A DNA stretch of 64,000 bases, taken from contig OZ014424.1 in assembly GCA_963965975.1 (NCBI GenBank), forward strand, positions 248,001 to 312,000. Direction: 5' to 3'. Below the pieces are notes generated by a model. That model was not told the origin of the DNA. It searched no databases and saw nothing but the letters and a program-made list of their open reading frames with translations. Positions 15,331 through 40,420 of this stretch are shown here, piece after piece. The first letter of the stretch is position 1. Each line of letters opens with the position of its first letter. Made by a program: the position numbers and the translations under genes. This stretch comes from Xestospongia bergquistia. Taxonomy: Eukaryota; Porifera; Demospongiae; Haplosclerida; Petrosiidae.

Positions 15331-18300
15331 TTATTTTGGACGTTGTTTAATGTAACTATCAAGATGTTCAATTACTTGTTTCATTATTGGACGACTACTG
15401 GGATCTTCTTTAACACAAGAGACTATTAAATCATAAAGAGGTGGAGATCTTGAACGAACTTGTTGTAACATATCTTGGAAAATATCTTCATCTGGAAAAC
15501 GACAAGTCATAACTTCACAGAAGAGAACACCATAGCTAAAGACATCCATTTTAGTAGTCTGAGCTTTTTTAGCACTAACCACACTTTTTAAAGCCTCAGG
15601 AGCACTATATACTAGAGCACCTGCAGCTTGAGTAACTGCATATCGAGCTTTATTAGCAGAGCCAAAGTCAGAGATCTTAGTCTTCCATTTATGAGGACCT
15701 TTAGATTCTAGGAGGACATTGGCACTACTCACGTCACGATGTATAATAGGATCAGGTAGACAATGTAAGTAGTTTAGACCTACTGCTACATCACGTATTA
15801 TAGTTAACATGACAGGTTCACAGGTTGGATGAGGAGTGAGTTGTTTGGTCTCATAAGCATTACGTAATGATGTATCCATAATTTCAGTAATAATCATAGG
15901 ATTACCAGATGGATCATCTAATACAGCACCAATAAACTGGAGAAGATTAGGATGACGTAACTGAGCCATTGTATTGATCTCACGATGTAATAACTGGAGA
16001 GTTGCTTCATGAGTGTCTTTGTTAATAAGGAGTTCATGCATTTGTTTCACAGCTACTCTTTGTTCTCTAAATATAGCAACTCTAACAGCTCCCCAAGCTC
16101 CTCTACCTACTTCTTCTTTAGTAAAAGCTAGCTCTTTAAAACTCACTTTACAGCTGCTTTCTATTGTTGTAATCTTCTTTTGAAGTAGATCTTTTTCTCT
16201 CAAGTATCTTTCAAGTTGTTTTTGAAGTTGTTCTAAAGTCTGTTGTAATTGTTGATGATCTTCTAGTTTCTGTTGGTAGGTTTGTTGTAGTTGAGAGTAC
16301 TCTTCCACTTTGTTTTGGTGAACCTTCTGTAGCTGGGAGAGTTCCTTCTCTTGTTGGGAAGTCTCTTGTTGTAGTTTTTGATGATCCATTAGTTGCTGTT
16401 GGTACTCTTGTTTTTGTTGGTGGTGAGTCTGTTGTAACCGGAAATGCTCCAGTAGATGTTCTTGGTGAGTTTCTTGTAGTTGATGATGCTCCTCCTGTAA
16501 TTTGCTCAACATCAGTTTCATGTTCTTTTCTTTTTCTTTTTTATCAGCTAATAATTGGCTCATTTCTGTTTGTAATTGAGCATTCTTTTCTTTCTCTTTA
16601 TCAAACAATTCCCATATTTCTTTATATCTACTGGATAGGTTATCAAAATTTGTGTTCAGCCATGAGTTCTGCTCGCGTTGTTTGACAATAGCTCTCTCCA
16701 TCATTGAAATCACCTCATCAAATGGAACCTCTCTTTCACAAACTCTTGACTTCTCTTCCAATAGACTTTGTAGATCATTCATTGTAAAGGATACTACTTG
16801 AGGCACACAATTACTATCAGTATTATTTATTTGGGGAATGGTTGGTGCATTGTTTTGTATCTCTTCTGGTATTTGTCCTGGAGTAATAAAAGTTTTATCC
16901 AGTTTCATAAAATTAATAGGACAAAAGAAAGCTTTTCCAGGTGGACAGTTAAAGAATCGTCTACCCAGCCAAGTACCATCAGTACATCCAGTAAGTGGAT
17001 TATCCTAAATAGATCATGTTAACATCTAGTGGATCAGTACTATATGACTAACCAGTTCTACACCAGCTATTACTCCATCAATTTCAGGGAGGGTCCCTAT
17101 CCACATAACCACACCATGTAGTGGGTCACCATGTTGGGCTGGTATATATACCATAGATCCTATAGCAAACTGAATGGGATCTTGAGGAGGAGGATCACTA
17201 GACAAGATGGTTTGAGAGGGAAGACTTGTATATGGTGACTCCTCAAATGGAGTAGAAGAATGGTTTGACCTTTGTACTATACCAGGTGAGTTTTTAAACT
17301 TGTGTGGTGCATTGGGAGATAGGCCAGTTTTTTCAGATATCACAGGTATATTTGAATATATTGGTGTAGAGGATGGGTCTTGTGATGTCTTTGTCTTGAT
17401 AGCTGAGGCTCCATTCCCTAAGTGCTGAGAGAAAATATATTGAGAAATTTTAATAAAACTACCACCTCTGTTTGTTCTATTTGTACTTCAATCACCTGAT
17501 AATCTTCATGTTGATGATGTTCCCTTTGTTGATCTTTAAATTTGTTAAGACATTTTCTTTCCCATTCAATTCTCTCATCACTAGTAGGTTGTCCAGTTTG
17601 TAGCAAATAAACTGAATCTTCTATTTCTCTGTGATCTCTTCCAGCTACAAGACTTTCTTTACTCTTATGTTGTATTGTTGTGTCTCTTCGTTCTTTATAT
17701 TCTTTTAAAGCTTGTCGCTCAAGTTCTATTCTCTTAGGATTTACCGGTTGTCCAGTATTTACAAGATAAACTGATTCTTCCATTTGTCTGTAGTCTCCTC
17801 CAACTGGAACTCTTGTAGCAGCTGTAAGACCTTCCTCATTCTGATCAGCTAAGGGAGCATCTGGTGGTATTCTGTCTAAATTCTTATCATGGCCTATTCT
17901 TTTATCATGGTCAATGATTATGGTCTCATCTAATAGATCTTTTTGAGCACGGTATTCCTCCACACTAACACTAGCTAACTTTGTCTGATATTCATTTTCT
18001 TTCTCTTTCTGTTGTTGTAGTGCATATTCATCAGCATGAAGAACCATTTGTTCAGGAAGATAGACTCGACTATGTCCAGATGATATCTTAAAAAGGTGAC
18101 CATAGCTACCAGTCAGTTCAAGACAAACATCAGGAAATTCTTCTTTGACTTTTATTTTCTCATCCTAAAAGATAAATATATAAAGTACTATTGTATAATA
18201 TATATAGTTATGTAAACTAACTGTTTCAATTCCTACAGCAATGACTTGAGGTGAACCAGGATCTCTTGATAGTCTCATTGGCCCCACCCACCTAACAGTA

Positions 18301-19190
18301 CCAGTGATAGGTCTTTCTTTAATAGATTGTAACACAACACGATTGCCACGTTTAAATTTATATTCTGTAGGTTTAGGATCAACATCTGTTCCTCCTTGAA
18401 TCTTTTGATGAACTTTACCAACAAACTCTTTTGCTTTTGTTGCTACTGATGTTGCTTCTGAACGACTTCTGGTATTATCAGCTGGACTTGAAGTGTGCTT
18501 TTGTCTAGAACTTTCACTAACTTTAGACTGAGTTGAAACAACTTGTTGATTTTGTTTGCCAGGATATGTTGATTTCTGTACTATTTTATACATAGCTACA
18601 TACACACCATTATTGGCACCACATTGGAAGTGTGGTCTACCATTAGTGTTACCTTTACCATGATATTTATCATCCTAAAGAAACAATGTATAATTCTATT
18701 GTTTTTTTAAGACTTAACTTACTATTATTTCAATTCCAAAGAATATTCCTTCATTTTCATCAATAGGTCCAATGTAACGTATCTTTCCACGAATAATATT
18801 ACTTGCACTATAGTAGCCTTGATCTAATTTAAACATGACTACATCTTCCACTTTGAGTGCCATTATCTCTTTCTTTCTGTCTTCTCTTAAATACTCTTTT
18901 AAACGCACACCAGGTGGTTGTACAGCTAACAGATAATGGACTTCATCTTTCCGTAATGGTGAGACATCAGTCAGTTCAGCATGAAGTTTGACAATATCTG
19001 GACCACTGAGCAGTTCATAATTAAGTGGTTTACCCTCCTTGTTAAATAACCAGTCCTTTTTTGGTATTTCTAATACTAACTCTCCTTTGAATATTATACA
19101 CTCCCATGGATCTTCTTCTTTCTCTGGTTTACCCTCACCATACATATCTTTTGTTGTGATACAAACTCCCAATTTAGTAGTAGCCATCAT
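15331..19190 (-). CDS. KIN1: CAP-Gly(x3), coiled coil, TKL kinase (class A)
   Basis: Five exons (19190-18723, 18674-18222, 18164-17466, 17424-17053, 17004-15331) join in frame to about 1,221 residues. Three CYLD-type CAP-Gly regions are seen: residues about 140-190 (IRYIGPIDENEGIFFGIEI), 255-335 (NRVVLQSIKERPITG) and 605-700 (GSMVYIPAQHGDPLHG, then CTDGTWLGRRFFNC). A Gln/Glu-rich coiled coil spans about 765-950 and a kinase about 960-1221, with GRGAWGAV loop, VAVKQM lysine, HRDVSSANVLLE and DFGSAN, all catalytic residues being present. CAP-Gly domains in CYLD bind microtubules and NEMO, so a scaffolded soluble kinase is plausible. Intron 3 is only 41 nt. The 5' half is closest to KIN5 and the 3' half to KIN4, so the gene is a mosaic. 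The start could also be the second Met at 19187. Confidence 0.85.
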
Positions 19191-19352: not shown

Positions 19353-22069
19353 TTATATATCAGTAAAATCATTTAATTCTGTCATTAATATACTACTAAA
19401 CTTATCATAAAATGTTTGCAGTACATGTTCCATATCAGGACGATCAGCTGGTGAGGATTTAGTACATGATACAATAACTTGATACATCAATGACCAACTA
19501 CTAGCTAATGATTGGAGCATACTGGGAAATGTTTGGTGGAAAGGAAACTGATTGGTCAATACCTCACAGAGAAGTATGCCATAACTATAGACATCCATTT
19601 TAGGCGTCTGTATCTGAGGGACTTCAGGTGCTGCATATACTTGTGCTCCAGGTCCTGTTGTCATGGAGAATTGGACGAGATTAGCTGAACCAAAATCAGA
19701 GAGTTTAGCCTTCCAATTATTGTGACCTTTAGATTCTAGGAGAACATTGGCACTACTCACGTCACGATGTATAATCTGGTCTTTGTGGCGATGAAGGTAG
19801 TTAAGTGCAGCAGCAACGTCACGTAATAGACACAACTTGATTTGGTTGTTAGATAGCATGCCATCTTTGTAAGCTTTGCGTAGTGAGGTATCCAGTAACT
19901 CTGTAATAATAATAGGACTACCTGATGGATGGTCTAGAACAGCTGCTATAAAGAGGAGTAGGTTAGGATGACGTACTTTAGCCATCATACTGATTTCACG
20001 ACATACAAGTTGATTGTAATATGGGGAGACTATTTCTGAATGAAGCATCTTTAAGGCCACTTTTTGACCTTGTAAAAGACCCACTTGAACTTTCCCTCAA
20101 CCTCCTTCTCCCAATATGATCTTGTTGGATTTGACTTGTACATGACTGACCTCCCAATAGTTGATATCAGCTACTGAATTTTCTTCTAATTGTTTGACTT
20201 GTCCTTTTAATCTCATATTCTCTACTGTTAGACGAGCAACCTGACCTTGTAGTTCTGACTCAAATTGATCTTTATCTCTTTGGAGTTGAGTATGTGAGGC
20301 TTGGAGATCAGTGATTTTTCTCTGAAGATCCCATTTTTCTTTCTCCAGTTGTTGTTTCTCTCTCTGAATATGCTGTTGAGCTTGTTCACTGTCTCTTTTT
20401 TCTTTTTCTATCAATGTTATTTTAGAATGAAGGGTGTCATTTGATGTTTGAAATTCATGTATTGTTTGCAGTAGTTTAGCTCTCTCATTTTTAAATTCTC
20501 TCTCTTGTTGTGTTAACTGTTCTTTGAGACTTTGTATTAATTTGGAATCATTTGGTTTAGGGCGGGACTCTCCTGTAATAAAATATAATTACATGTATAA
20601 TATGTAATGTGGGGTTACTCACTTTGCTGTTTTTGGAATTCTTTAAGACATTGTTGTTCATGTTCAATTCTCTCATCACTAAAAGTCTGTCCAGTTTGTA
20701 GCAAATAAACTGACTCTTCCATTTGTCTATGATCTTCCCTTGTGATTCCTGTAGCAGCTATAAGGCCTTTCTCACTCTGATCTGAAGGCATTCTATCTAA
20801 ATTCTTATGATGGCCTATTTTTTTATCATGGTCAATGTTTATAGTCTGCTTAGCTTCATTTAATAGATCTTTTTGAGCACGATATTCTTCAACACTGGCA
20901 CAATATTCTTTAGCTAACTTTGTGTCCAGTTCATTTTCTTTCTGTTGTTCTAGTTTATATTCATTAACATGAAGAACCAACTGTTCAGGAAGATAAACCC
21001 GACTATGTCCAGATGATATAGTGAAGAGATTCTGACCATGACTACCAGTGAGATCTAGACTTAGATCAGGAAATTCTTCATGGACTTTTATCTTCTCATC
21101 CTATAAAGTAAACATATAAAGTACTATAATATAACATATATAGTTATGTAAACTGACTGTTTCAACTCCTACAGCAATGACTTGAGGTGAACCAATCTCT
21201 CTTGATAGTCTTATTGGTGCCACCCACCTAACAGTACCCATGATAGGTCTTTCTTTAATAGATTGCAACACAACACGATTGCCATTTTTAAATTTATACT
21301 CTGTAGTTGTAAGTTTGGAAGTAGGCTTGTCATGATCAATGTCTAATCCTCCTTGAAACCTTTGAGCAAGTTTCTCTAATGTATCTTGTTCTAAATGACT
21401 TCTAGCATATTCCTTTGGAGTAGTTTGATGTTCTATGTTGGAATAAAATGTAGATTTTTTTAGAATTCTGTCCATAGCTACAAAAACACCATTATTATCA
21501 CTGCATTGAAAGTGAGGTCTACCACTAGTGTTACCTCTACCACGATAGTTATCTTCCTAAACACATCATATTAAAATTAACACAGATCATTATAATTAAC
21601 TTACTGTGATTTCAATACCAAAGAATATTCCATCACTTTCTTGAACAGGACCAATGTAACGTATTTTTCCATGAATAATATTACTTGCTGAGTTTTGGCC
21701 TAGATCTAATTAAAATATGACTATATCTTCTAATTTTAGTGCCATTATCTCTTTCTTTTTATCTTCTCTTAAATACTCCTTTAAACGCACACCTGCAGGT
21801 TGTACTGCTAACAGATATGGTATTTCATCTTCATGTAATGGTAAAACCTCAGTGTCTTCAGCATGGAGGGTGACAATATCTGGACCAGTAAGCAGCTGAT
21901 AATTAAGTGGTTTACCCTCCTTACTAAGTAGTCGATCTTTTACAGGTATTTCAACTACTAAATCTCCTTTGAATATTCTACAATCCCATGGAACTTCTCC
22001 CTCTTTCTCTGGTTTACCCTCACCATACATTTCTTTTGTTAAGATAAAAACTGTGGATGTAGTAGCCAT
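19353..22069 (-). pseudogene. KIN2: inactivated CAP-Gly(x2), class B kinase gene
   Basis: Same architecture and nearly the same sequence as intact KIN6 (37713-40420): MATTSTVFILTKEMYGEG start, CAP-Gly region 1, CAP-Gly region 2, linker, coiled coil, class B kinase (VALKML, HRDVSSANVLLE, DFGSAN). Two nonsense changes break it. At 21710-21712 the lysine codon AAA of KIN6 is TAA, just before the first CAP-Gly core. At 20097-20099 the tryptophan TGG of the glycine-rich loop (GEGGWGKV in KIN5 and KIN6) is TGA. Exon borders are otherwise conserved (about 22069-21605, 21556-21158, 21100-20617, 20570-19353). Both stops would have to be sequencing errors or recoded for the gene to work, which I consider unlikely. 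The separate open 3' piece still encodes most of a kinase domain from VGLLQGQKVALK on. Confidence 0.85.
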
Positions 22070-22393: not shown

Positions 22394-25300
22394 TTATTTT
22401 GGACGTTGTTTAATATAACTATCAAGACGTTCAATTATTTGTTTCATTATTGGACGACTACTGGGATCTTCTTTAATACAAGAGAATATCAAATCATAAA
22501 GAGATGGAGATCTTGAACGAACTTGTTGTAACATCTCTTGGAAAACATCTTCATCTGGAAAACGACAAGTCATAATTTCACAGAAGAGAACACCATAGCT
22601 AAAGACATCCATCTTAGTTGTCTGAGCTTTCTTAGCACTAACCACACTTCTTAAAGACTCAGGAGCGCTATACACATAAGCACCTGCTGCACGAGTCATT
22701 GCTTGACGAGCTTTATTAGCAGAGCCAAAGTCAGAGATCTTAGTCTTCCATTTATGAGGACCTTTAGATTCTAGGAGAACATTGGAGCTACTCACATCAC
22801 GATGTATGATAGGATCAGGTAGACAGTGTAAGTAGTTTAGACCTACTGCTACATCACGTATTATAGTTAACATAACAGGTTCACAGGATGGATGAGGGAT
22901 GAGTTGTTTGGTCTCATAAGCATTACGTAATGATGTATCCATAATCTCAGTAATAATCATAGGATTACCAGATGGATCATCTAATACAGCACCAATAAAC
23001 TGGAGAAGATTAGGATGACGTAACTGAGCCATTGTATTGATCTCACGATTAAGTAACTGGAGAGTTGCTTCACGAGTGTCTTTGTTAATGAGGAGTTCAT
23101 GCATTTGTTTCACAGCTACTCTCTGCTCTCGAAAGATAGCAACTCTAACTGCTCCCCAAGCTCCTCTACCTACTTCTTCTTTGGTAAAAGCTAGCTCTTT
23201 AAAACTCACTTTCCAGCTGCCTTCTATTGTTGTTATTTTCTTTTGAAGTAGAACCTTTTCTCCTATGCTTTTTTCTACTTGTTTTTGAACTTGTTCTAAA
23301 GTCTGTTGTAATTGTTGATGATCTTCTAGTTGTTGTTGGTAGGTTTGTTGTAGTTGAGAGTACTCTTCTACTTTGTTTTGGTGAGTCTTCTGTAGCTGGG
23401 AGAGTTGCTCTTCTTGTTGGGAAGCCTCTTGTTGTAGTTTTTGATGATCCACTAGTTGCTGTTGGTGAACCTCTTGTAACAGGTAGTACTCTTCTTCTTG
23501 TTGGTCATGAGTTAGTTGTAGTTGGAAATGGTCCAGTAGATGTTCTTGGTGAGTTTCTTCTAGTTGATAATGTTCATCCTGTAATTGGTTCATTTCTGTC
23601 TGCAACTGTAAATTCTTTTCTTTCTCATTGTCAAACAGTTCCCATAATTCTTTATATGCACTAGAGACACGATCAAAAGTGGTACTCAGCCATTTATTTT
23701 CTTGTTGTACAGCAGAGTTCTGCTCTTGTTGTTTGATAATGACCTTCTCCATCATTGTAATTACTTCATCAAATGGAACTTCTTTCTCACAGACTTTTGT
23801 CTTCTCCTCCAATAGATCTTGTAGATCATTCATAGTAAGAGATACTACTTGAGGTATACTATTACTATCAGTAGATGTAGTAACATTACTCTGGGAAGTA
23901 GTTGGTGCACCAACTTCTACTTCTCTTAATATGGGTCCTGAATGAACTGCTCTTCTGTACATGTTGGCACCTGGATGCTGTCCCTGTTTGAGAGTACCCT
24001 TGTACCATCCTCCATATTGGAAATGTTCTCCTCCCTGTAAGCTTTCCATAGGATCTGTAGCTTCACCATACAGATCAAGTTCAGGATTAACATAGACACA
24101 CATGTAAATATCTTGAGTAAAACGATGGACATATTCTGGTATACTCTTAGCAGGTGAGTCCTTTAACTTTTGACGGTTATCAGGATTGTAGACCCAATCT
24201 TGTAGATCTTCAGTAACATCCACAACTCTAGGAATATAATACATGTCATCTGTAGAGAGATATTATGATAAGAGAGAAGTACTAAGTCATTATAACTTAC
24301 ATAATCTGTTAGCCATACTGTCATGAAAAAGCCATCGATTTTGTGATCTTGTATAACAGACATAATGACTAGTCTCAATACATATAACAGATAAAAGTTG
24401 CATCTGAGATATTTGACTAACATCACCAATATTATCCTGCTTTAATTCCACATCTTCACAGTGATGGTCCTTACGACTCTTGTGAGCATTCTCACAACAA
24501 TTACTACAATAGAACACATAAGGTTCATCAATGTGGTAAAGATCTTTAGAACAATTGTAACAAATAGTAGTGGCTGTGTTAGATAAACACAAATAACATT
24601 TTTGAATTCCTCTAGCACCTATATGGCAGAGAGAAAAGAAAAGTGACAGTCACTGACTATATTATCTATATCTCTCTTACTTGGATCAAGGAGTGGTTTA
24701 ACATTGATAGTTAATGAGGGAATTATTCTGTTATACATTTTAAAGTCTTTACCAAAATGAGGCATTTGAAGTAATAGTTTTGAAGGAACCTATAAAGTCA
24801 TTAATACATAATGAAAGATAAATAGTTTATCATACATTTGTAAATGAGATCTTTTGTTCATGAAACATTTGAGCTATCAACTTTTCAGTTTCTGGTAATT
24901 CATTTTGTTGAGGATCAATTTCAAAAAATAATTGTATAAAATACTCTTTCTCAACTCCAAAAGATCGTCTAAAAATAACAATATTAAAATACTATAAATA
25001 TAGTAATACTTACTTAATACTCAGAAATGGTTTAACATGTAATATTTCTTTAAACAATAAGTTGAGGAACTCAAGATCTAATAATAGAGTAGTATCATGT
25101 GATCAGAATGTGATAGTCACATGACTAACCTTTCTCATCTTTATTGGCTCCATTCATTTGACCAAATTCCTCCAAACTGTTACGTAATTCCATCACAGAT
25201 TCATGTCTAGCCAGACCATACCTATAAACCAGTTTTAATAACCTGTTATATCAGTAACTTATACTAACTTTCTCAATGGATTTACTATCCCTTTCCAGAG

Positions 25301-27785
25301 AATATATTTAATTTTCTGTCCCACATGATCATTAGGTTCTTCTAGTAACATCATATCAAATGAATCACTCAAAGCAAACAATCCAAATACAGTAGCATCA
25401 AGATAACAGGAATTATGATGACCTTGTATACCATGTTCATCACCAATGTATTTGGTAAAGAGATCTGTAGTTACAAAAGTATCTTCTTCCTCAAATTGTG
25501 GTGCTAACTTTTTCAATGCTGTAGTTAGAGAAATGATAATAATTAGTGATAATATGAACTAGTTAATTTACGATTTTGAAAGTCTTCTCTTGCACCTGCT
25601 GGTATTTGTCCTGGATCAATATATCTTGTGTCCAGTCTTAGAGCTGCAATAGGACAAAAGAAAGCTCTTTCAGGTGGACAGTTAAAGAGTCTTCTTCCCT
25701 GCCAAGTACCATCAGTACATCCAACAAGTGGATTATCCTAAATAGATCATATTAATATCTAGTGGATCAGTGTTGTATGAACTTACTAGTTCTACACCTG
25801 CCACTAATCCATCAATTTCAGGGACTGTCCCTATCCACATAACCACACCACATAGGGGATCACCATGTTGTGTTGGTATATATACCATAGATCCTATAGC
25901 AAATTGACTGGGATTTTGAATAGGAGGTTGAGATGGGAGACTAGAATAAGATGAGTTCTGTGATGGACCAATAGAAGAAACTAATTTCTCTTCTGTATCA
26001 GGAATATTACTAAATTTGGCTGCAATATTTGGAGAGAGGTTAGTTTTACCAGAAATCACATTAGACATATTTTGATATACTGGTATAGAGGAGGGACCTT
26101 GTGATGTCTGTCTCCTGTCAGCTGAGGGTCCATTCCCTGAGTGCTGAGAAGAATTGTAGTAAGAAATTTCAACAAAACTTTCCATCTTCTAACTGTCCTT
26201 CCTCAATCACCTGGAAATCCTCATGTTGTGCTCTTTGAAATTCTTCCAGAGCTTGTCTTTCTTGTTCAATTCTCTCAGGATCTACTGGTTGTCCAGTTTG
26301 CACCAAATAAAATGATTCTTCTACTTCTCTGGTATGTTGCCCTCCTCCTTTGGCTCCTATACCAGCTACACTCTGTTCTTCATTCTCATACTCACCTTTT
26401 ATTTCAGGATCTGGAACCATAATGTCTATCCTTTTTTCATGTTCTATATCTTGAGCTCTGTTAGCTTGGTCTAACATTTCTTTTTGGGCTCTGTATTCTT
26501 CCACACTGAGACCATAATCTTTGGCTATTTTCACATCTTGTTGATTATCTATTTGTTGTTGTTGAGTGTAGTCTTTAGCATGAACAACTAATTGTTCTGG
26601 AAGATATATACGATCATGATTAGGAGCTACTCTGAAAAGATCATGACCATGACTACCAGTGACACAGAGATGAAGATCAGGAAAATCTTTATCAGGTTTA
26701 ATTTTCACATCCTAAAAGACAATATATAAAATGATAATTTATATTATCATTACTAACTGTTTCCACTCCAACAGCTTTTATAGGAATACTTCCAACTTCT
26801 TTAGATGTTTTCACTTGCCCCACCCACTTTACAGTACCAGTGATATTTTTGTTTCTCACAGACTGTAATACAACACGATCCCCTTTTTTAAACAGGTACC
26901 CTTCAGGAGGTGGTACCTCCTCTGACTCACATTCAATCATAGGACTTGACCGACCAAACTTTTGAGCAAGCTTATCAACCATCCCTTTAGCCCATGATCC
27001 ACTAGAACCTTCTTTCTTTTCCTCTGTCATTGCTTCTGAACGACTTCTAGTATTATTAGTAGGACTTGATATATCCTTTCTTTTTGATAGATTATCAGAA
27101 CTAGGCTGCTTTGTAATGGGATCCTTTAAAGGATGATCATGAGGTTTATCTCCATGATATGCACACTTCTGTACTATTCTATCCATAGCTACATACACAG
27201 CATTATTATCACCACAATTAAAATGTGGTCTACCATTAGTAGTACCTCTACTACGTTGCTCTTTATTCTACAAATATTCATCAAAGTATTAAATATATTA
27301 TTAATAATACTTACTATTATTTCAATTCCAAAGTATATCCCATCCTTTTCATCAAGGTGTCCAATATACTGTACTTTACCACGAATAATTGAGTCTGGTA
27401 ATCTTTGTTCAATCTTGAATTTAAACATCACCATATCTCCTTTTTTTATTTCCATTATCTCTTTCAATTTTTTCTCATTTAAGAATTGTTGTATACGTAC
27501 ACTAGGTGGTTGGACTGCTATTAAATACTTCAATTCATCTCTACTTAGAGGTGTGACTTCAAGAGGTGCAGCATAGAGGGTGATGTCAGGATCAGAATAA
27601 AGACGATAATTGTCTGGATGCTTGTCCTGTTGGTTAGGAAGTCGATCTTTTTCTGGAATTTCTACTACAAGTTCTCCTCTGTAGATTGTACACTCCCATG
27701 GATTATCTCCTTCTTGTGCTGGTTTACCAACTCCATGTTTTTCTTTCGTTAAAAGAGAAACATCTTTGCTTAGTAGATGGGCCAT
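22394..27785 (-). CDS. KIN3: CYLD deubiquitinase fused to TKL kinase
   Basis: Twelve exons (27785-27315, 27267-26758, 26711-26211, 26143-25787, 25737-25572, 25518-25269, 25221-25130, 25077-25014, 24968-24836, 24789-24681, 24618-24301, 24249-22394) join in frame through GT-AG introns to about 1,553 residues. Order: CAP-Gly regions at about 135-190, 275-345 and 570-650; USP/CYLD domain from about 660 with catalytic Cys near 706 (QGHHNSCYLDA), a Cys/His B-box-like insert at 837-882, catalytic His near 913 (CIETSHYV) and Asp near 928 (FHDSMA); coiled coil about 1075-1275; class A kinase about 1278-1553 with GRGAWGAV, VAVKQM, HRDVSSSNVLLE and DFGSAN. The last exon holds both the USP C-terminus (IPRVVDVTEDLQDWV to DLYGEATDP) and the kinase, so no splice joins them. 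Both enzymes keep their catalytic residues. The DUB half is closest to CYLD at 54941. Exon 3 uses a donor 67 nt upstream of the acceptor used in KIN1 and KIN5; reading through instead meets a stop. Confidence 0.87.
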
Positions 27786-28145: not shown

Positions 28146-28626
28146 TTATTTTGGACGTTGTTTGATGTAACTATCAAGATGCTCAATTACTTGTTTCATT
28201 ATTGGACGACTACTGGGATCTTCTTTAATACAAGAGAATATCAAATAATGAAGAGGTGGAGATCTTGAACGAACTTGTTGAAGCATATCTTGAAAAACAG
28301 GAGGGTCTGGAAAATGACAAGTCATAACTTCACAGAGGAGAACACCATAGCTAAAGACATCTATCTTAGAGGTCTGAACATTCTGGGCTCTAAATATACT
28401 TGGTACAGACTCAGGAGCGCTATACACTAGAGCACCTGCAGCTTGAGTAACAGCATAGCGAGCTTTATTAGCGGAGCCAAAGTCAGAGATCTTAGTCTTC
28501 CATTTATGAGGACCTTTAAATTCTAGGAGGACATTGGCACTACTCACATCACGATGTATAATAGGATCAGGTAGACAATGTAAGTAGTTTAGACCTACTG
28601 CTACATCACGTATTATAGTCAATTAT
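28146..28626 (-). pseudogene. Kinase C-lobe fragment (class A, NHR-kinase type)
   Basis: An open 158-codon piece runs from LTIIRDVAVGLNYLHCLP through HRDVSSANVLLE, DFGSAN and SAPESVPSIFRAQNVQT to the family C-terminus YIKQRPK and stop. It lacks the whole N-lobe, coiled coil and N-terminal domain. The SVPSIFRAQNVQT segment is shared with KIN7 and resembles KIN9, and differs from the CAP-Gly kinases KIN1 and KIN4, so it derives from an NHR-type gene. Its upstream edge near 28622 abuts duplicated DPH2 sequence in the opposite orientation. Confidence 0.85.
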
Positions 28627-30084: not shown

Positions 30085-33000
30085 TTATTTTGGACGTTGT
30101 TTAATGTAACTATCAAGATGTTCAATTACTTGTTTCATTATTGGACGACTACTGGGATCTTCTTTAATACAAGAGAATATTAAATCATAAAGAGGTGGAG
30201 ATCTTGAATGAACTTGTTGTAACATATCTTGAAAAATATCTTCATCTGGAAAACGACAAGTCATAACTTCACAGAAGAGAACACCATAACTAAAGACATC
30301 CATTTTAGTAGTCTGAGCTTTTTTAGCACTAACAACACTTTTTAAAGCCTCAGGAGCACTATACACATAAGCACCTGCTGCACGAGTCATTGCTTGACGA
30401 GCTTTATTAGCAGAACCAAAGTCAGAGATCTTAGTCTTCCATTTATGAGGACCTTTAGATTCTAGGAGGACATTGGCACTACTCACATCACGATGTATAA
30501 TAGGATCAGGTAGACAATGTAAGTAGTTTAGACCTACTGCTACATCACGTATTATAGTTAACATAACAGGTTCACAGGATGGATCAGGGATGAGTTGTTT
30601 GGTCTCATAAGCATTACGTAATGATGTATCCATAATCTCAGTAATAATCATAGGATTACCAGATGGATCATCTAATACAGCACCAATAAACTGGAGAAGA
30701 TTAGGATGACGTAACTGAGCCATTGTATTGATCTCACGATTAAGTAACTGGAGAGTTGCTTCACGAGTGTCTTTGTTAATGAGGAGTTCATGCATTTGTT
30801 TCACAGCTACTCTCTGCTCTCGAAATATAGCAACTCTAACAGCTCCCCAAGCTCCTCTACCTACTTCTTCTTTGGTAAAAGCTAGCTCTTTAAAACTCAC
30901 TTTCCAGCTGCTTTCTATCATTGTAATCTTCTTTTGAAGTAGAACCTTTTCTTCTAAGTGTATTTTTTGAACTTGTTCTAAAGTCTGTTGTAATTGTTGA
31001 TGATCTTCTAGTTTCTGTTGGTAGGTTTGTTTTAATTGAGAATGTTCTTCTACTTTGTTTTGGTGAGTCTTCTGTAGCTGGGAGAGTTCCTCTTCTTGTT
31101 GGGAAGCCTCTTGTTGTAATTTTTGATGATCCTTTAGTTGCTGTTGGTGAACCTCTTGTAATTGGGAGTACTCTTCTTCTTGTTGGTCATGAGTTAGTTG
31201 TAGTTGGAAATGTTCCAGTAGATGTTCTCGGTGAGTTTTTATTAGTTGATGATACTTCTCCTGTAATTGACTCAAAGTTAGTATCATGTTTTTCTCTTTT
31301 TCTTTTCTATCAGTTAATAATTGGATCATTTCTGTTTGTAATTGAGCATTCTTTTCTTTCTCTTTGTCAAGCAATTCCCATATTTCTTTGTATCTACTGG
31401 ATAGGTTATCAAAACTTGTGCTTAGCCAATTTTTTTCTTGTTGAATAATGGAGTTCTGTTCTCGTTGTTTGACGATAGCCCTCTCCATCATTGAAATCAC
31501 CTCATCAAATGGAACCTCTCTTTCACAGACTCTTGACTTCTCTTCCAATAGACTTTGTAGATCATTCATTGTAAAGGATACTACTTGAGATATACTATTA
31601 CTATCAGTATTATTACTTTGGGAAAATGTTGGTGCATTGTTTTGTATGTCTTCTGCTGATATTTGTCCTGGATAAATATATCTTGTGTCCAGTCTTAGAG
31701 CTGTAATAGGACAAAAGTAAGCTCTTCCAGGTGGACAGTTAAAGAATCGTCTACCCTGCCAAGTACCATCAGTACATCCAGTAAATGGATTATCCTAAAT
31801 AGATCATGTTAACATCTAGTGGATTAGTGATATATGACTTACTAGTTCTACACCTGCCACTAATCCATCGATTTCAGGGAGTGTCCCTATCCACATGACC
31901 ACACCTTGTAGACCTTCACCACGTTGGGTTGGCAGGTAAACCATAGATCCTATAGCAAACTGACTGGGATCTTGAGTAGGAGGACCACTAGAAGGGGTGG
32001 GTTGAGAGGGAAGATTTAAATTAGGTAACCTCTCAGATGGACTTGGACACCTCTCTGCTCTACCAGGTGGGTTATTAAGGTTTGGGGGTGTACTTTTAGA
32101 GAAGTTAGTTTTACCAGAAGTTTGACTAGGTATTAAATTTTGGTATAATGGTGTAGTGGAGGGTTCTTGTGATGTCTGTTTCCTATCAGCTGAAACTCCA
32201 TTCCCTGACAGCTGAGAAGAAGTAAATTGAGAAATTTGAATAAAACCTTTAAGCTCTTTCTCTTCTAACTGTCCTTCCTTAATCACCTGATAACCATGAG
32301 TGATCTCCTCATGATGATGTTGTTGATGTCCTCCTTGTTGCTCTTTAAATTCTTCTAGAGCTTGTCGCTCACGTTCGATTCTCTCTTCAGGGAAATACTG
32401 TCCAGTTCCTAGCATATAAATTGACTGGTCTAATTTTCCTCTACCAGCTGCAAGTACTTCTTCATCACCTATTGAAGGGTCTGGAGGTATGTACTCTTGC
32501 CGTCTTCCTTCATGGTCCATATCTCTACTTTTGTTAGCTTGTTCTAAAATTTCATGTTGGGCTCTGTACTCATCCACACTGAGACCATAATCTTTAACTC
32601 TTTTCACTTCTTGTTGATTATCTATTTGTTGTTGTTGAGTATAATCTTTAGCATGAACAACTAATTGTTCAGGAAGATATATACGACCATGATTAGGAGC
32701 TACTCTGAAAAGATCATGGCCATGACTACCAGTGAGACAGAGATGAAGATCAGGAAATTCTTTATCAGGTTTAATTTTGACATCCTAAAAGAAAAAATAT
32801 AAAATGACAATTTATTTTGTCATTACTAACTGTTTCTATTCCAACAGCTTTTATAGGAATACTTCCAACTTCTTTGGACGTTTTTACTTGCCCCACCCAC
32901 TTTACAGTACCAGTGATAGTTTTCTCTCTCATAGACTGTAGCACAACACGATCACCTTCTTTGAACTGATAGTCTTCAGTAGGTGGTACCACCTCAGATT

Positions 33001-33968
33001 CTACCATAGCAGTGACAGGAAGTGGACCAGTAAATCTTTGAGCTAATCTACCTACTACCCCTTTTCCTTTAGACCATAAACTGTCCCTTTTAGGTTCCAT
33101 ACCAGGAGACTCTGTACCCAAAATTAATTATAAATTTTACTAGTGTGTCTTAATTAATACCTCTAGAGTATGATCCATCTTTCTTTTCTTGTACAAATGC
33201 CTCTGAACGACTTCTGGTATTGTGAGCAGGAGATGAAACATGTCTTTGTCCAGATTTTTCACTAAATATAGGTTGGGTAGAAATGACAGGTTTTTCTTGA
33301 GGAACACCTTGTTGGTTGCTAGGAGCATCTTTGTCAGATTTATATGTAGACTTCTTTACTATTTTATCCATAGCTACATATATAGCATTCTTAGGACCAC
33401 AATTAAAATGAGGTATACCATTAGTAGTACCTCTACCTAGATATTGATCCTCCTAGTGTATTGCAATATATTTAATGATATACAGTACAATACTTACTGT
33501 TATTTCAATTCCAAAATAAATTCCCTCATTTTCTGGTATAGTACCAAGATGTCGTACTTTACCACGAACAAAGGCAATTGGATTACTTTTTCCTTGATTT
33601 TTTTTAAACATCACTGAATCTCCAACTTTTATGTCCATAATTTCTGTCATCCTGTTCTCTCTCGTGTACTGTTGTATACGTGCACTAGGAGGATGAACAG
33701 GTAGTAAGTAGTCAACCTCAGTTCCATGTAATGGTGATATATCAGTTGGACCAGCATAGAGGGTAACATTGTCATGTTCACCAGCATACAACCTATAATT
33801 ATGAGGTTGTTTACCATCAGTGCTTGGAACTCGCTTATTTTCTGGAATTTCTATAACCAACTCCCCTTTGTCAACTGGACAATTCCATGGTACCTCTTCT
33901 TCACCCTCTATCCTCCCTTCTCCACGTTTGTCTTTCAATAAAATGGCTATCTGTGAACTGGCCATCAT
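30085..33968 (-). CDS. KIN4: CAP-Gly(x3), coiled coil, TKL kinase (class A)
   Basis: Six exons (33968-33498, 33452-33161, 33111-32831, 32784-31843, 31797-30085; the second junction is a 49-nt intron) join to about 1,232 residues. The N-terminus MASSQIAILLKDKRGEGRIE is closer to stand-alone CYLD (54941) than to the other kinases. CAP-Gly cores are VRHLGTIPENEGIYFGIEI, DRVVLQSMREKTITG and GSMVYLPTQRGEGLQG. A Gln-rich coiled coil leads to a kinase with GRGAWGAV, VAVKQM, HRDVSSANVLLE, DFGSAN and a YIKQRPK end. After the third CAP-Gly region the text ALRLDTRYIYPGQI, still recognisable as the lead-in to the CYLD USP domain, runs directly into NNAPTFSQ and the coiled coil. This suggests that USP exons were removed from a KIN3-like ancestor. 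The start could be Met 33968 or 33965. Five exons are listed by coordinates. Confidence 0.85.
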
Positions 33969-34054: not shown

Positions 34055-37000
34055 TTATATATCAGTAAAATCATTTAATTCTGTCATTAATATACTACTA
34101 AACTTATCATAAAATGTTTGCAGTACATGTTCCATGTCAGGACGATCAGCTGGTGAGGATTTAGTACATGACACAATAACTTGATACATCAATGACCAAT
34201 TACTAGCTAATGATTGGAGCATACTGGGAAATGTTTGGCGGAAAGGAAACTGATTGGTCAATACCTCACAGAGAAGTATGCCATAACTATAGACATCCAT
34301 TTTAGGCATCTGTGTCTGAGGGACTTCAGGTGCTGCATATACTTGTGCTCCAGGTCCTGTTGTCATGGAGAATTGGACGAGATTTGCTGAACCAAAATCA
34401 GAGAGTTTAGCCTTCCAATTATTGTGACCTTTAGACTCTAGGAGAACATTGGCACTACTCACGTCACGATGTATAATCTGATCTTTGTGGCGATGAAGGT
34501 AGTTAAGTGCAGCAGCAACATCACGTAATAGACACAACTTGATTTGGTTGTTAGGTAGCATGCCATCTTTGTAAGCTTTGCGTAGTGAGGTATCCAGTAA
34601 TTCTGTAATAATGATAGGACTACCTGATGGATGATCTAGAACAGCTGCTATAAAGAGGAGTAGGTTAGGATGACGTACTTTAGCCATCATACTGATTTCA
34701 CGACATACAAGTTGATTGTAATATGGAGAGACTATTTCTGAATGAAGCATCTTTAAGGCCACTTTTTGACCTTGTAAAAGACCCACTTGAACTTTCCCCC
34801 AACCTCCTTCTCCCAATATGATCTTGTTGGATTTGACTTGTACATGACTGACCTCCCAGTAGTTGATATCAGCTACTGAATTCTCTTCTAATTGTTTGAC
34901 TTGTCCTTTTAATCTCATATTCTCTACTGTTAGACGAGCTACCTGACCTTGTAGTTCTGACTCAAATTGATCTTTATCTCTTTGGAGTTGAGTCTGTGAG
35001 GCTTGGAGATCAGTAACCTCTCTCTGAAGGTTCTGTTTCTCTTTCTCCAATTTTTGATTCTCCCCATCTACTTGTTGTATCTGTTCCTCAAAGTTATATT
35101 TCTGAGTCTTCAGAGCTACTTCCAAATCTTGTTTGTCTTTTTCTAGTAATTTATTTTTAGATTGAAGGTTGGCAATTGAAGTTTTAAGTTGGACATTTGT
35201 TTCTTGTAGCTTTGTCTTCTCATTTTCAAATTCTCTGTCTTGTTGTTTTAACTGTTCTCTGAGAGTTTGTACTAGTTTGGAATCATTTGTTGGTACTGGT
35301 TTAGGAAGCTGCTCACTTTGAGATTCTTTTTCTAACATGATAATGATAATAATTCAATCAGCTTTGAATGAACATACCATTTTCTAAATCTATCCTTGTA
35401 ACTGTTGGCATTGGTCCTGGATCAATATGTTTTGTCTCCAGTCTTAAAGCTGTAATAGGACAAAAGAAACCTTTTCCAGGTGGACAGTTAAAAAGTCGCA
35501 TCCCCTGCCAACTACCATCAGTACATCCAGGAAGTGGATTATCCTAAATAGATCATGTTAACATCTAGTGGATTAGTGCTATATGACTTACCAGTTCTAC
35601 ACCAGCTATTAATCCAGGGATTCCAGGGAGTGTCCCTATCCACTTGACCACACCATGTATTGGGTCACCATGTTGAGTATCCAAATATACCCTAGATCCT
35701 ACTGAGGCTCGGTTTCCTAAGTTCTAAGAGAAAATGTGTTGAGAAACTTTAATAAAACTTCTACCACCTCTGTTTGTTCTATTTGTGTTTCAATCACCTG
35801 ATAATCTTCATGATGATGATGTTCCCTTTGTTGACCTTTAAATTTGTTAAGACATTTTCTTTCCTCTTCAATTCTCCCATCACTAATAGGTTGCCCAATT
35901 TGTAGCAAATAAACTGAATCTTCTGTCTCTCTGTGATTTCCTCCAGCTACAAGACTTTCTTTACTCTCATGTTGTATTGTTTGGTCTCTTTGTTCTTTAT
36001 ATTCATTTAAAGCTTGTCGCTCAAGTTCTACTCTCTTAGAATTTACTGGTTGTCCACTCTTTACAAGATAAGCTGATTCTTCCATTTGTCTGTAGTCTCC
36101 TCCAACTGGGACTCTTACACCAGCTATAAGATATTCTTCATTCCGGTCAGCTAAGGGAGGATTTGGAGACATTCTGTCTAAATTCTTATCATGGCCTATT
36201 CTTTTAGCAACGTTAGTGATTATGGACTTGTTAGCTTCATCTAATAGATCTTTTTGAGCATGATATTCCTCTACACTGAGACCATATTCTTTAGCTAATT
36301 TTGTCTCCAATTCATTTTCATTTTGTTTCTGTTGTTGTAGTTCATATTCATCAACATGAAGAACCATTTGTTCAGGAAGATAAACTCGACTATGGTCAGT
36401 TGATATAGTGAAGAGATTCTGACCATGAGTACCAGTAATATCTAGACTAAGATCAGGAAATTCTTCTTTGACTTTTATCTTCTCATCCTATAAACATATA
36501 AAGTACTACAATATAACATAATATATATATAATAATATAGTAATATATATAGTGATGTAAACTAACTGTTTCAATTCCTACAGCAATGACTTGAGGTGAA
36601 CCAGGCTCTCTTGATAGTCTCATTGGCCCCACCCACCTAACAATACCAGTGATAGGTCTTTCTTTAATAGATTGTAACACAACACGATTGCCACGATTAA
36701 ATTTATATTCTGTAGGTTTAGGATCAACATCTGTTCCTCCTTGAATTGTTTGAGAAACTTTCTCTACTACAAAATCTTTTGCCTTGGTGATGGTTTCCCC
36801 TGAGTGACTTTTGGCATGATCACTTAAAGCTGATGTATGTTTTTGTCGAGACTTATTAACTTTTGGTTGGGTTGAAATCACAGGTGACTTTGGAGGAATA
36901 CCTTTGCTTGGATATGCTGATTTTTGCATTATTTTATCCATAGTTACATATACAGCATTATTTACACCACATTTGAAGTGTGGTCTACCATTAGTGGTAC

Positions 37001-37537
37001 CTCTACCATGATATTTATCCTCCTAGACAGGGCATAATGTGAAATGATTTTTGTAAAGAGGATTTAACTTACAGTTATTTCAATTCCAAAAAAGAGTCCA
37101 TCACTTTCTTCAACAGGACCAATGTAATGTATCTTTCCACGAATAATATTACTTGCTACATTGTGGCCTTGATCCAATTTGAACATCACTGTGTCTCCTA
37201 CTTTGAGTGCCATTATCTCTTTCTTTCTGTCTTCTCTTAAATACTCTTGAAAACGGACACCAGGTGGTTGTACAGCTAACAGATAAGGGAGTTCATCTCT
37301 CTGTAATGGTGAGATATCAGTCAGTTCAGCATGAATTTTAACAATGTCTGGACTACTGAGAAGCTGATAATTAAGTGGTTTACCCTCCTTGTTAAATAAC
37401 CAATCCTTTTCAGGTATTTCAACCACTAACTCTCCTCTAAAAACTCTACACTCCCATGGATCTTCTCCCTCTTTCTCTGGTTTACCCTCACCATACATTT
37501 CTTTTGTTGTGATACAAACTCCCAATTTAGTAGCCAT
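34055..37537 (-). CDS. KIN5: CAP-Gly(x3), coiled coil, TKL kinase (class B)
   Basis: Six exons (37537-37073, 37022-36567, 36487-35768, 35723-35592, 35543-35378, 35331-34055) join in frame to about 1,071 residues. The N-terminus MATKLGVCITTKEMYGEGK matches KIN1. CAP-Gly cores are IHYIGPVEESDGLFFGIEI, NRVVLQSIKERPITG and SRVYLDTQHGDPIHG. The coiled coil (about 660-790) is Lys/Glu/Gln-rich and unlike that of class A. The class B kinase has GEGGWGKV, VALKML, HRDVSSANVLLE and DFGSAN, with the ending SSILMTELNDFTDI. Intron 3 is 44 nt. The phase-1 intron before the coiled-coil exon is the same joint used in KIN6 to KIN9. The 5' half pairs with KIN1 at an offset of about 18.35 kb. Confidence 0.86.
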
Positions 37538-37712: not shown

Positions 37713-40420
37713 TTATATATCAGTAAAATCATTTAATTCTGTCATTAATATACTACTAAACTTATCATAAAATGTTTGCAGTATATGTTCCATATCAGGA
37801 CGATCAGCTGGTAAAGATTTAGTACATGACATAATAATTTGATACATTAATGACCAACTACTAGCTAATGATTGGAGCATAGCAGGAAATGTTTGGCGGA
37901 AAGGAAACTGATTGGTCAATACCTCACAGAGAAGTATGCCATAACTATAGACATCCATTTTAGGCGTCTGTGTCTGAGGGACTTCAGGTGCTGCATATAC
38001 TTGTGCTCCAGGTCCCGTTGTCATGGAGAATTGGACGAGATTAGCTGAACCAAAATCAGAGAGTTTACCCTTCCAATTATTGTGACCTTTAGATTCTAAG
38101 AGGACATTAGCACTACTCACGTCACGATGTATAATCTGGTCTTTGTGGCGATGAAGGTAGTTAAGTGCTGCAGCAACGTCACGTAATAGACACAACTTGA
38201 TTTGGTTGTTAGATAGCATGCCATCTTTGTAAGCTTTGCGTAGTGAGGTATCCAGTAACTCTGTAATAATAATAGGACTACCTGATGGATGGTCTAGAAC
38301 AGCTGCTATAAAGAGGAGTAAGTTAGGATGACGTACTTTAGCCATCATACTGATCTCACGACGTACAAGTTGATTGTAATATGGGGAGACTATTTCTGAA
38401 TGAAGCATCTTTAAGGCCACTTTTTGACCTTGTAAAAGACCCACTTGAACTTTTCCCCAACCACCTTCTCCCAATATGATCTTGTTGGATTTGACTTGTA
38501 CATGACTGACCTCCCAATAGTTGATATCAGCTACTGAATTCTCTTCTAATTGTTTGACTTGTCCTTTTAATCTCATATTCTCTACTGTTAGACGAGCAAC
38601 CTGACCTTGTAGTTCTGACTCAAATTGATCTTTATCTCTTTGGAGTTGAGTATGTGAGGCTTGGATTTTTCTCTGAAGATCCCATTTTTCTTTCTCCAGT
38701 TGTTGTTTCTCTCTCTGAATATGCTGTTGAGCTTGTTCACTGTCTCTTTTTTCTTTTTCTATCAATGTTATTTTAGAACGAAGGGTGTCATTTGATGTTT
38801 GAAATTCATGTATTGTTTGCAGTAGTTTAGCTCTCTCATTTTTAAATTCTCTCTCTTGTTGTGTTAACTGTTCTTTGAGACTTTGTACTAATTTGGAATC
38901 ATTTGGTTTAGGGTGGGACTCTCCTGTAATAAAATATAATTACATGTATAATATGTAATATGGGGTCACTCACTTTGCTGTTTTTGGAATTCTTCAAGAC
39001 ATTGTTGTTCATGCTCAATTCTCACATCACTAAAAGTCTGTCCAGTTTGTAGCAAATAAACTGACTCTTCCATTTGTCTATGATCTTCCCCTGTGATTCC
39101 TGTAGCAGCTATAAGGCCTTTCTCACTCTGATCTGAAGGCATTCTATCTAAATTCTTATGATGGCCTATTTTTTTATCATGGTCAATGTTTATAGTCTGC
39201 TTAGCTTCATTTAATAGATCTTTTTGAGCACGATATTCTTCAACACTGGCACAATATTCTTTAGCTAACTTTGTGTTCAGTTCATTTTCTTTCTGTTGTT
39301 CTAGTTTATATTCATTAACATGAAGAACCAACTGTTCGGGAAGATAAACCCGACTATGTCCAGATGATATAGTGAAGAGATTCTGACCATGACTACCAGT
39401 GAGATCTAGACTTAGATCAGGAAATTCTTCATGGACTTTTATCTTCTCATCCTATAAAGTAAACATATAAAGTACTACAATATAATATATATAGTTATGT
39501 AAACTAACTGTTTCAACTCCTACAGCAATGACTTGAGGTGAACCAATCTCTCTTGATAGTCTTATTGGTGCCACCCACCTAACAGTACCCATGATAGGTC
39601 TTTCTTTAATAGATTGTAACACAACACGATTGCCATTTTTAAATTTATACTCTGTAGTTGTAAGTTTGGAAGTAGGCTTATCATGATCAATGTCTAATCC
39701 TCCTTGAAACCTTTGAGCAAGTTTCTCTAATGTATCTTGTTCTAAATGGCTTCTAGCATGTTCCTTTGGAGTAGTTTGATGTTCTATGTTGGAATAAAAT
39801 GTAGATTTTTTTAGAATTCTGTCCATAGCTACAAAAACACCATTATTATCACTGCATTGAAAGTGAGGTCTACCATTAGTATTACCTCTACCACGATAGT
39901 TATCTTCCTAAACACATCATATTAAAATTAACACAAATCATTATAATAAACTTACTGTGATTTCAATACCAAAGAATATTCCATCACTTTCTTGAACAGG
40001 ACCAATGTAACGTATTTTTCCATGAATAATATTACTTGCTGAGTTTTGGCCTAGATCTAATTTAAATATGACTATATCTTCTAATTTTAGTGCCATTATC
40101 TCTTTCTTTTTTTCTTCTCTTAAATACTCCTTTAAACGCACACCTGCAGGTTGTACTGCTAACAGATATGGTATTTCATCTTCATGTAATGGTAAAACCT
40201 CAGTGTCTTCAGCATGGAGGGTGACAATATCTGGACCAGTAAGCAACTGATAATTAAGTGGTTTACCCTCCTTACTAAGTAGTCGATCTTTTACAGGTAT
40301 TTCAACTACTAAATCTCCTTTGAATATTCTACATTCCCATGGATCTTCTCCCTCTTTCTCTGGTTTACCCTCACCAAACATTTCTTTTGTTAAGATAAAA
40401 ACTGTGGATGTAGTAGCCAT
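37713..40420 (-). CDS. KIN6: CAP-Gly(x2), coiled coil, TKL kinase (class B)
   Basis: Four exons (40420-39956, 39907-39509, 39451-38974, 38923-37713) join in frame to about 850 residues. CAP-Gly region 1 lies at about 130-190 (IRYIGPVQESDGIFFGIEI, then GRPHFQCSDNNGVFVAMD) and region 2 at about 225-305 (NRVVLQSIKERPIMG). The third CAP-Gly region of the sister genes is absent: the linker ending EEFQKQQS passes through a phase-1 intron straight into the coiled coil (GESHPKPNDSKLVQSL). The kinase has GEGGWGKV, VALKML, HRDVSSANVLLE and DFGSAN. It is the intact twin of KIN2 (offset about 18.35 kb), differing by a 9-nt deletion in the coiled coil and by lacking both stops. Confidence 0.87.

Follow-up and report, generated by a model that had tools for sequence, protein, structure and literature searches.

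Can one animal protein both edit ubiquitin chains and phosphorylate its neighbors? CYLD normally acts on signaling complexes that are run by separate kinases, for example, RIPK1 and TAK1. In a 64,000-nucleotide stretch of the genome of the demosponge Xestospongia bergquistia (contig OZ014424.1, positions 248,001 to 312,000; hereafter, "the window"), a preliminary description proposed a gene at 22394..27785 on the minus strand that fuses a CYLD-type ubiquitin-specific protease (USP) to a TKL-type kinase and could erase ubiquitin as well as phosphorylate nearby targets. We analyzed this gene, to which we refer as the target, together with its neighbors and its counterparts in other animals. Among open papers, which comprise neither subscription papers nor preprints, we found no description of a CYLD-kinase fusion. 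The novelty claimed in the preliminary description stands to that extent, but the gene is not the sole case of its kind (see below). CYLD of Amphimedon queenslandica and Acropora digitifera was described as having RING, CAP-Gly, and deubiquitinating domains, with no kinase part mentioned in the accessible part of that paper (PMC5796713).

Protease and kinase share one open reading frame

Splicing of the target by hand yielded 12 exons on the minus strand that encode 1,608 amino acids plus a stop, in the order of three CAP-Gly domains, the CYLD USP domain, a coiled coil, and a TKL kinase. A spliced protein-to-DNA aligner that was given this hand-made protein returned an identical 12-exon model. 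The coordinates, exon number, and domain order proposed earlier were right, while the length of 1,554 codons with stop was wrong; that model seems to be short by about 55 residues between the catalytic Cys and His of the protease. Exons 1 to 3 (27785-27315, 27267-26758, and 26711-26211; together 26211..27785) encode the CYLD N-terminal region with CAP-Gly domains 1 and 2, as placed by CYLD alignment, and exons 4 and 5 (26143-25787 and 25737-25572; together 25572..26143) encode a linker and the third CAP-Gly domain, where the best Pfam stretch lies (residues 578-644). The USP domain (24050..25518) runs through exons 6 to 11 (25518-25269, 25221-25130, 25077-25014, 24968-24836, 24789-24681, and 24618-24301) and into exon 12 (24249-22394, stop included).

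This last exon carries the join. It starts within the USP domain at YDMYYIP and continues through a linker and a predicted helical coiled-coil region (23219..23773; residues 164-350 of the open frame) into the kinase domain (22397..23218). It lies in an open frame of 622 codons (22397..24262, coding from 24249), as compared to a longest stop-free run of 171 codons in 2,000 mononucleotide shuffles. Because the USP C terminus and the kinase share this one stop-free frame, in line with the earlier claim that they share an exon, no guessed splice is needed to join them. Whereas a plain CYLD ends after the USP domain, here the coiled coil and the kinase follow in the same exon. All 11 introns are of the GT-AG type, are 45 to 67 nucleotides long, and either have a length that is not a multiple of three or contain in-frame stops. 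An outside query, the acorn-worm CYLD P0005, placed five of the seven USP introns (6, 7, 8, 9, and 11) at the exact target sites; intron 5 and the intron 10 acceptor were placed differently. Pfam reported three CAP_GLY stretches, with a position for the best one only, and a Pkinase domain at residues 1347-1597; the CAP-Gly number equals that of human CYLD. Together with the structure match given below, these results confirm the proposed fusion at the level of sequence and support a single-chain CYLD-TKL gene.

The USP domain keeps its triad but has a changed motif

The target USP region matched the solved structure of human CYLD (Protein Data Bank entry 2vhf) with an E value of 1e-54 over query residues 2-355 of 361. 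The Pfam family UCH gave no match on the target protein up to E 0.1, and it barely passes its cutoff on Amphimedon CYLD (25.5 versus 23.9 bits). The catalytic triad is present as Cys706, His969, and Asp984; the preliminary description had numbered the Cys correctly but had placed the other two at His913 and Asp928. The zinc-type, B-box-like module within the domain (residues 892-930) retains its CxxC..CxxC..CxxC..H ligands and is predicted to bind zinc.

We also found a change that the preliminary description lacks. The stretch that reads EKDPEEF, or the same with a final L, in CYLD is EKDLEF in the target (residues 781-786), where one codon was lost in frame without a frameshift. Among 164 other CYLDs, a set that includes other fusions and over-represents vertebrates, 161 have DPEEF and 3 have DPEEL, and all 164 have Arg at the place of target His859, likewise absent from the earlier account; the plain CYLD of the window keeps both DPEEF and the Arg. 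At the 82 USP columns that are at least 95% conserved against this set, the target deviates at 11 and the plain CYLD at 7. All seven of the latter deviations are common to both proteins, which leaves four that are specific to the target: loss of the P of DPEEF, replacement of its E by L, R859H, and N995Y.

The location of the changed motif can be related to human CYLD. A table in a review (PMC6460526) gives c.2042 for human D681G, along with splice variants at positions 2041+1 and 2042-1, which places a phase 1 intron within codon 681. Intron 7 of the sponge gene has the same place and phase, and we therefore match the Asp of EKD to human D681. The change in the target affects the residues directly after this Asp, and human D681G is called catalytically inactive in the part of a second paper that we could consult (PMC8295343).

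The kinase belongs to a family with an altered catalytic loop

Motif inspection bore out the earlier statement that the kinase Lys, HRD, and DFG are retained: The target has the G-loop GRGAWGAV, VAVK (Lys1371), the αC-Glu, HRDVSSSN from residue 1473, SDFG from 1496, and SAPE from 1518. Among the best 60 of 561 matches to solved structures, the closest kinases were CTR1, TNNI3K, MLK4, MAP3K9, and TAK1 (E values of 7e-24 to 9e-21), which we take to represent the TKL group and which resemble the target in the kinase domain; to our knowledge, none of them has a CYLD part. In Ser/Thr kinases, a catalytic-loop Lys usually stands two places after the HRD Asp. Where CTR1 reads HRDLKSPN, the target reads HRDVSSSN, with Ser at the place of this Lys. 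Since the Ser is common to all 11 family members inspected, it looks like a family trait; the pattern in the inspected kinases, and also in the coral protein P0127, is HRDVS(S/A)xN in place of HRDLKxxN, which by itself does not reveal the substrate class. A Death domain of the RIPK/IRAK type was sought with Pfam on the target, with no match up to E 0.1. In an AlphaFold model of the last-exon protein, whose confidence is low to moderate (mean pLDDT of 61), a helix of 187 residues is followed by a kinase-like domain.

Gene models from other animals show the same architecture

Three protein searches addressed how widespread the fusion is. The first, with the target as query, gave 37 hits among 4,684 candidates and yielded CAP-Gly-kinase proteins of A. 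queenslandica without a USP domain, i.e., LOC100634190 (P0001) and P0002, which consist of a CYLD N-terminal part with CAP-Gly, a coiled coil, and a related kinase. The second, with residues 600-1111 of the plain CYLD, gave 2,085 hits; 3 of the best 120 have a kinase domain, namely P0042 (LOC135340804) and P0058 ("CYLD-like isoform X3") of the sponge Halichondria panicea and P0127 ("myosin heavy chain, striated muscle-like" isoform X2) of the coral Acropora muricata. The third, with a profile of three fusions, gave 1,483 hits, and among the best 120 P0042, P0058, P0127, and P0158 carried a kinase domain. A further H. panicea protein, P0040, enters the kinase N-lobe and then stops. These four H. 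panicea and A. muricata proteins, of which P0040 is cut short, have the domain order of the target and the join after the USP domain. Pfam reports CAP-Gly and kinase domains in P0042, P0058, and P0127, while their USP domains were recognized by CYLD similarity over 94 to 97% of the query stretch plus motifs. In the databases, these three are gene models under the names "uncharacterized," "CYLD-like," or "myosin heavy chain"; none of the four is named as a fusion. Unlike the target, all four have an intact DPEEF; in P0042 and P0127, the triad, EKDPEEFL, and PRFG are all intact. The linkage of P0042 with P0040, of P0127 with the plain A. muricata CYLD P0061, and of A. queenslandica P0157 with P0002 is suggested by contigs of equal size.

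P0158 is a 551-residue protein from the European Nucleotide Archive (ENA) that contains a USP C-terminal part, a coiled coil, and a kinase. Where the target has intron 11, this protein has additional residues of intron-like character, and its kinase shares 91% identity with that of A. queenslandica P0001. H. panicea is a demosponge of the order Suberitida and Amphimedon belongs to Haplosclerida. The models of H. panicea and A. muricata, with P0158, rule out that the fusion is unique to X. bergquistia, and the proposed check for USP-kinase proteins in other sponges thus came out positive in H. panicea and in part in the Amphimedon-like P0158. Human CYLD (2vhf) and the Amphimedon CYLDs P0038 and P0157 resemble the target in the CAP-Gly domains, the USP domain with its inserted zinc module, the triad, and the phase 1 intron at the codon that corresponds to human D681, but they end after the USP domain and have EKDPEEF, whereas the target has EKDLEF and adds a coiled coil and a kinase.

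CYLD joins other partners as well. CYLD-like proteins with a Death domain (PF00531, precomputed), another type of CYLD fusion, were seen in Lytechinus (P0097), Acropora and Montipora (P0124 and P0117), and Patiria (P0048). The N terminus of the A. queenslandica CYLD P0038 matches an RBR E3 ligase C-terminal domain, with a RING match below the cutoff; from these matches, this model carries a ligase-like part.

Phylogenetic tests argue against a single inherited fusion

In a USP tree of 23 rows, whose outgroup did not fall on one side of a branch, the target and the plain CYLD from the same genome formed a pair (support of 100/99). P0158 grouped with A. queenslandica (96/92), the H. panicea proteins grouped together, and P0127 grouped with Acropora CYLDs. 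A kinase tree of 43 rows, which excluded most hits from bacteria or protists as well as those kinases of the window that are broken or partial, joined the target to the neighboring gene G4, then to G7 and the own-genome locus L021. The H. panicea kinases lay beside two HSP70-kinase proteins and P0007, and P0127 stood apart on a long branch.

Approximately unbiased (AU) tests, for groups that were picked after viewing this tree and with long branches present, rejected placing the H. panicea kinases with the clade of the target (p = 0.004) and the A. muricata kinase with either the clade of the target (p = 0.009) or H. panicea (p = 9e-6). Uniting the six CYLD-linked kinases of the window with the Amphimedon-type proteins as one clade, as opposed to their own paralogs, was rejected as well (p = 1e-5), which paralogs that lost their CYLD part could explain. 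A single ancient fusion inherited by all is not supported by these kinase tests. The trees point to three or more separate joinings of CYLD with a TKL kinase or, alternatively, later kinase swapping or concerted evolution in arrays; gene conversion that replaced the kinase part could mimic the AU rejections. A bolder version of the former, which we regard as a doubtful possibility, is that CYLD and a TKL kinase were fused at one and the same site on several independent occasions in animals, giving single-chain eraser kinases that would be active at both ends, and that sponges would have built a gene family around this joint whose members drop the protease or the kinase.

The target sits in an array with related genes

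Tblastn of the target against the window, followed by spliced models, revealed a 44-kb array that comprises the target, a plain CYLD, and five CAP-Gly-kinase copies without a USP domain, one of them a pseudogene. The domains of these five (G2, G3, G4, G6, and G7) were assigned by homology to the target rather than by Pfam. The plain CYLD (G1; 54941..58914, plus strand; 13 exons, 1,111 amino acids, no kinase) is the nearest relative of the target USP domain and ends directly after its own. The other members lie on the minus strand. G4 (30085..33965) and G7 (15331..19166; modeled to start a few codons inside its first exon) combine the CYLD N-terminal part, including the third CAP-Gly region, with a coiled coil and a kinase. 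G3 (34118..37519) has the N-terminal part with the third CAP-Gly region and a B-type kinase, and G2 (37776..40411) has the N-terminal part and a B-type kinase without the third CAP-Gly region; the ends of both are inexact. G6 (19416..22060), directly downstream of the target, is of the G2 type and is a pseudogene with two in-frame stops. Five of the seven CYLD-derived genes modeled in the window thus have a CYLD N terminus and a kinase without a USP domain. In the frame of G4, the end of the third CAP-Gly domain (EDIQN) runs directly into the post-USP linker of the target (NAPTFSQ) with no intron between, a layout that resembles a gene whose USP exons were removed or never gained.

The minus strand also holds a fragment of a kinase C-lobe close to the upstream side of the target (28146..28622; 82% identical), two kinase reading frames in which no CYLD part was found in frame (40747..41853 and 45842..46939), and a related kinase with a stop that interrupts its frame (43502..44605). 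Outside this family, a formin FH2 fragment (3049-3573) and an 829-codon reading frame with ankyrin repeats (60172-62658) lie on the same strand of the window.

Across the genome, the 12 matches to the target USP domain fell exclusively on the target and the plain CYLD (7 first-look candidates; distant copies could be missed). A search with the kinase gave 390 candidates, and all of the 141 that were scored matched, which is a lower bound. The TKL kinase family is greatly expanded in this genome, on contigs C11, C5, C1, C2, and C14, with the largest share clustered on C11. Among 20 kinase loci fetched, 3 (L029, L031, and L032) have CYLD N-terminal pieces near the kinase and no USP match; the piece in L031 consists of 56 residues only. 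The kinase of the ENA protein P0003 is identical to the own-genome locus L022. A CAP-Gly search gave 39 matches in all, among them a cluster on contig C6 (8377614-8637181); when four CAP-Gly stretches from outside the window, two from this cluster and two from C14, were compared with the target protein by tblastn, none matched at 1e-4.

The target has a mosaic history

Measured in steps of 120 bases, the identity of the target to its neighbors was patchy along the gene. Against the plain CYLD, it was 54 to 70% up to position 26831, 91 to 97% at 26830-26471, 62 to 80% to 25871, and then 82 to 98% to 23951; against G4, it was 78 to 100% from 23950 to the end and at least 91% in each step from 23470. 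Of the seven introns in the USP part, five share at least 91% identity with their plain CYLD counterparts (100% in three cases), and the lowest matches at 44 of 62 positions. The synonymous divergence (dS) was 0.17 for the USP domain (target versus plain CYLD), 0.10 for the kinase (target versus G4), and 0.08 when the N-terminal parts of the plain CYLD and G4 were compared with each other; exon 1 of the target gave about 0.9 versus both. Since identity and dS vary in patches along the gene, the target was assembled, or is overwritten time and again, by recombination inside the array. Either the full fusion would be ancestral, with the plain CYLD having lost the kinase and G4 and G7 the USP domain, or the target regained its USP domain; P0158 tips the balance, though not decisively, toward a fusion that predates the split from Amphimedon.

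A CYLD-docked kinase as the favored reading

What would such a protein do? We lean, with about even confidence, toward a CYLD-docked kinase whose deubiquitinase activity is weakened or altered and whose protein chains are paired by the coiled coil. The chains that CYLD cuts assemble kinase-activating complexes, with RIPK1, TAK1, and TRAFs named in the part of the paper available to us (PMC5796713), and a CYLD-docked kinase would act where these complexes assemble. The CYLD body, i.e., the CAP-Gly docking domains and a USP domain of the kind that acts on K63 and M1 chains, would bring the kinase, via the long coiled coil, to ubiquitin-based signaling complexes of the NF-κB/JNK kind. Pairing of the protein chains by the coiled coil would allow mutual activation of the kinases in trans. 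The USP domain, with its near-invariant motif changed, may serve as a chain reader or slow trimmer rather than as a full eraser. Docking partners, dimerization, kinase activity, residual deubiquitinase activity, and expression are attributes that we infer for the target. That the docking part and the coiled-coil-linked kinase form the core unit is indicated by the five of seven array genes that have just these parts, and by kinase relatives joined to ubiquitin-linked modules: P0004 carries seven ubiquitin-family stretches, and P0006 has ubiquitin-family domains and a RING-like match below the cutoff. The USP-less combinations in A. queenslandica P0001 and P0002 and at L029, L031, and L032 lend further support to a docked kinase. 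The reading is also backed by the uninterrupted frame from the USP end through the coiled coil to the kinase, by low dN/dS values (ratio of nonsynonymous to synonymous divergence; given below) in all three parts, by the retained kinase motifs, by the long helix predicted before the kinase, and, for the weakened USP domain, by the change at the motif of human D681G.

Several observations weigh against this reading. The triad and zinc module are intact, and the dN/dS between the target USP domain and the plain CYLD, 0.26 (0.16-0.44), indicates that the domain evolves under constraint, although this pairwise value also contains selection on the plain copy; the target USP may still be an active protease, and a motif change is no proof of lost activity. 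A relative-rate test counted 13 changes in the target versus 7 in the plain CYLD, with 11 unpolarized (p = 0.26), and a faster decay of the target USP domain was rejected on this nonsignificant difference. Activity of the kinase, whose HRDVSSSN loop is without the usual Lys, is likewise putative, and the kinase relatives P0009 and P0010 are joined to HSP70, which is not a ubiquitin module.

The next best explanation is a dual enzyme of the kind raised in the preliminary description. Here, one chain would remove K63 and M1 ubiquitin and phosphorylate neighbors, so that one recruitment would end a ubiquitin signal and start phosphorylation. The single chain, the triad with its zinc module, and the main kinase motifs of that proposal are present, the dN/dS upper bounds are 0.44 for the USP domain and 0.42 for the kinase (target versus G4, 0.18 with a range of 0.08-0.42), and P0042 and P0127 have every inspected protease motif intact. 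However, the claim of ubiquitin erasure is weakened by EKDLEF and R859H, which belong to the four target-specific changes at conserved columns, and the relatives without a USP domain show a kinase that can do without one. We consider a dual enzyme possible but the weaker proposal for the target; the Halichondria and Acropora proteins, with their intact USP motifs, are better candidates for full dual activity. A passing mosaic, i.e., a young chimera made by array recombination and gene conversion, perhaps barely expressed and with no settled role, seems improbable: The patchy identity, the pseudogene and the broken or partial kinases in the array, the low dS of kinase and USP domain, and the changed USP motif would fit it, but all 12 exons are open, dN/dS is 0.18 to 0.30 across the USP domain, coiled coil, and kinase (0.30 for the linker and coiled coil versus G4), the motif lost its codon in frame, and the same architecture was modeled in other animals. 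Separate CYLD-like and kinase messages, or a join made by assembly or splicing error, are very improbable, and an artefact is ruled out as the main explanation. The plain CYLD of the same window, which ends right after its USP domain, would fit separate products, but the target junction lies inside an exon with no stop in 622 codons, same-order H. panicea models occur on two contigs of differing size, and P0158 holds the join in another record.

That sponges as well as a coral have CYLD linked to a kinase of the TAK1/MLK-like kind points to a physical shortcut from ubiquitin editing to phosphorylation, and nature thereby offers a test of whether these two processes go together. With CYLD alone, CYLD with a kinase, and the docking part with a kinase present in one array, the sponge locus lets one ask which part carries which function.

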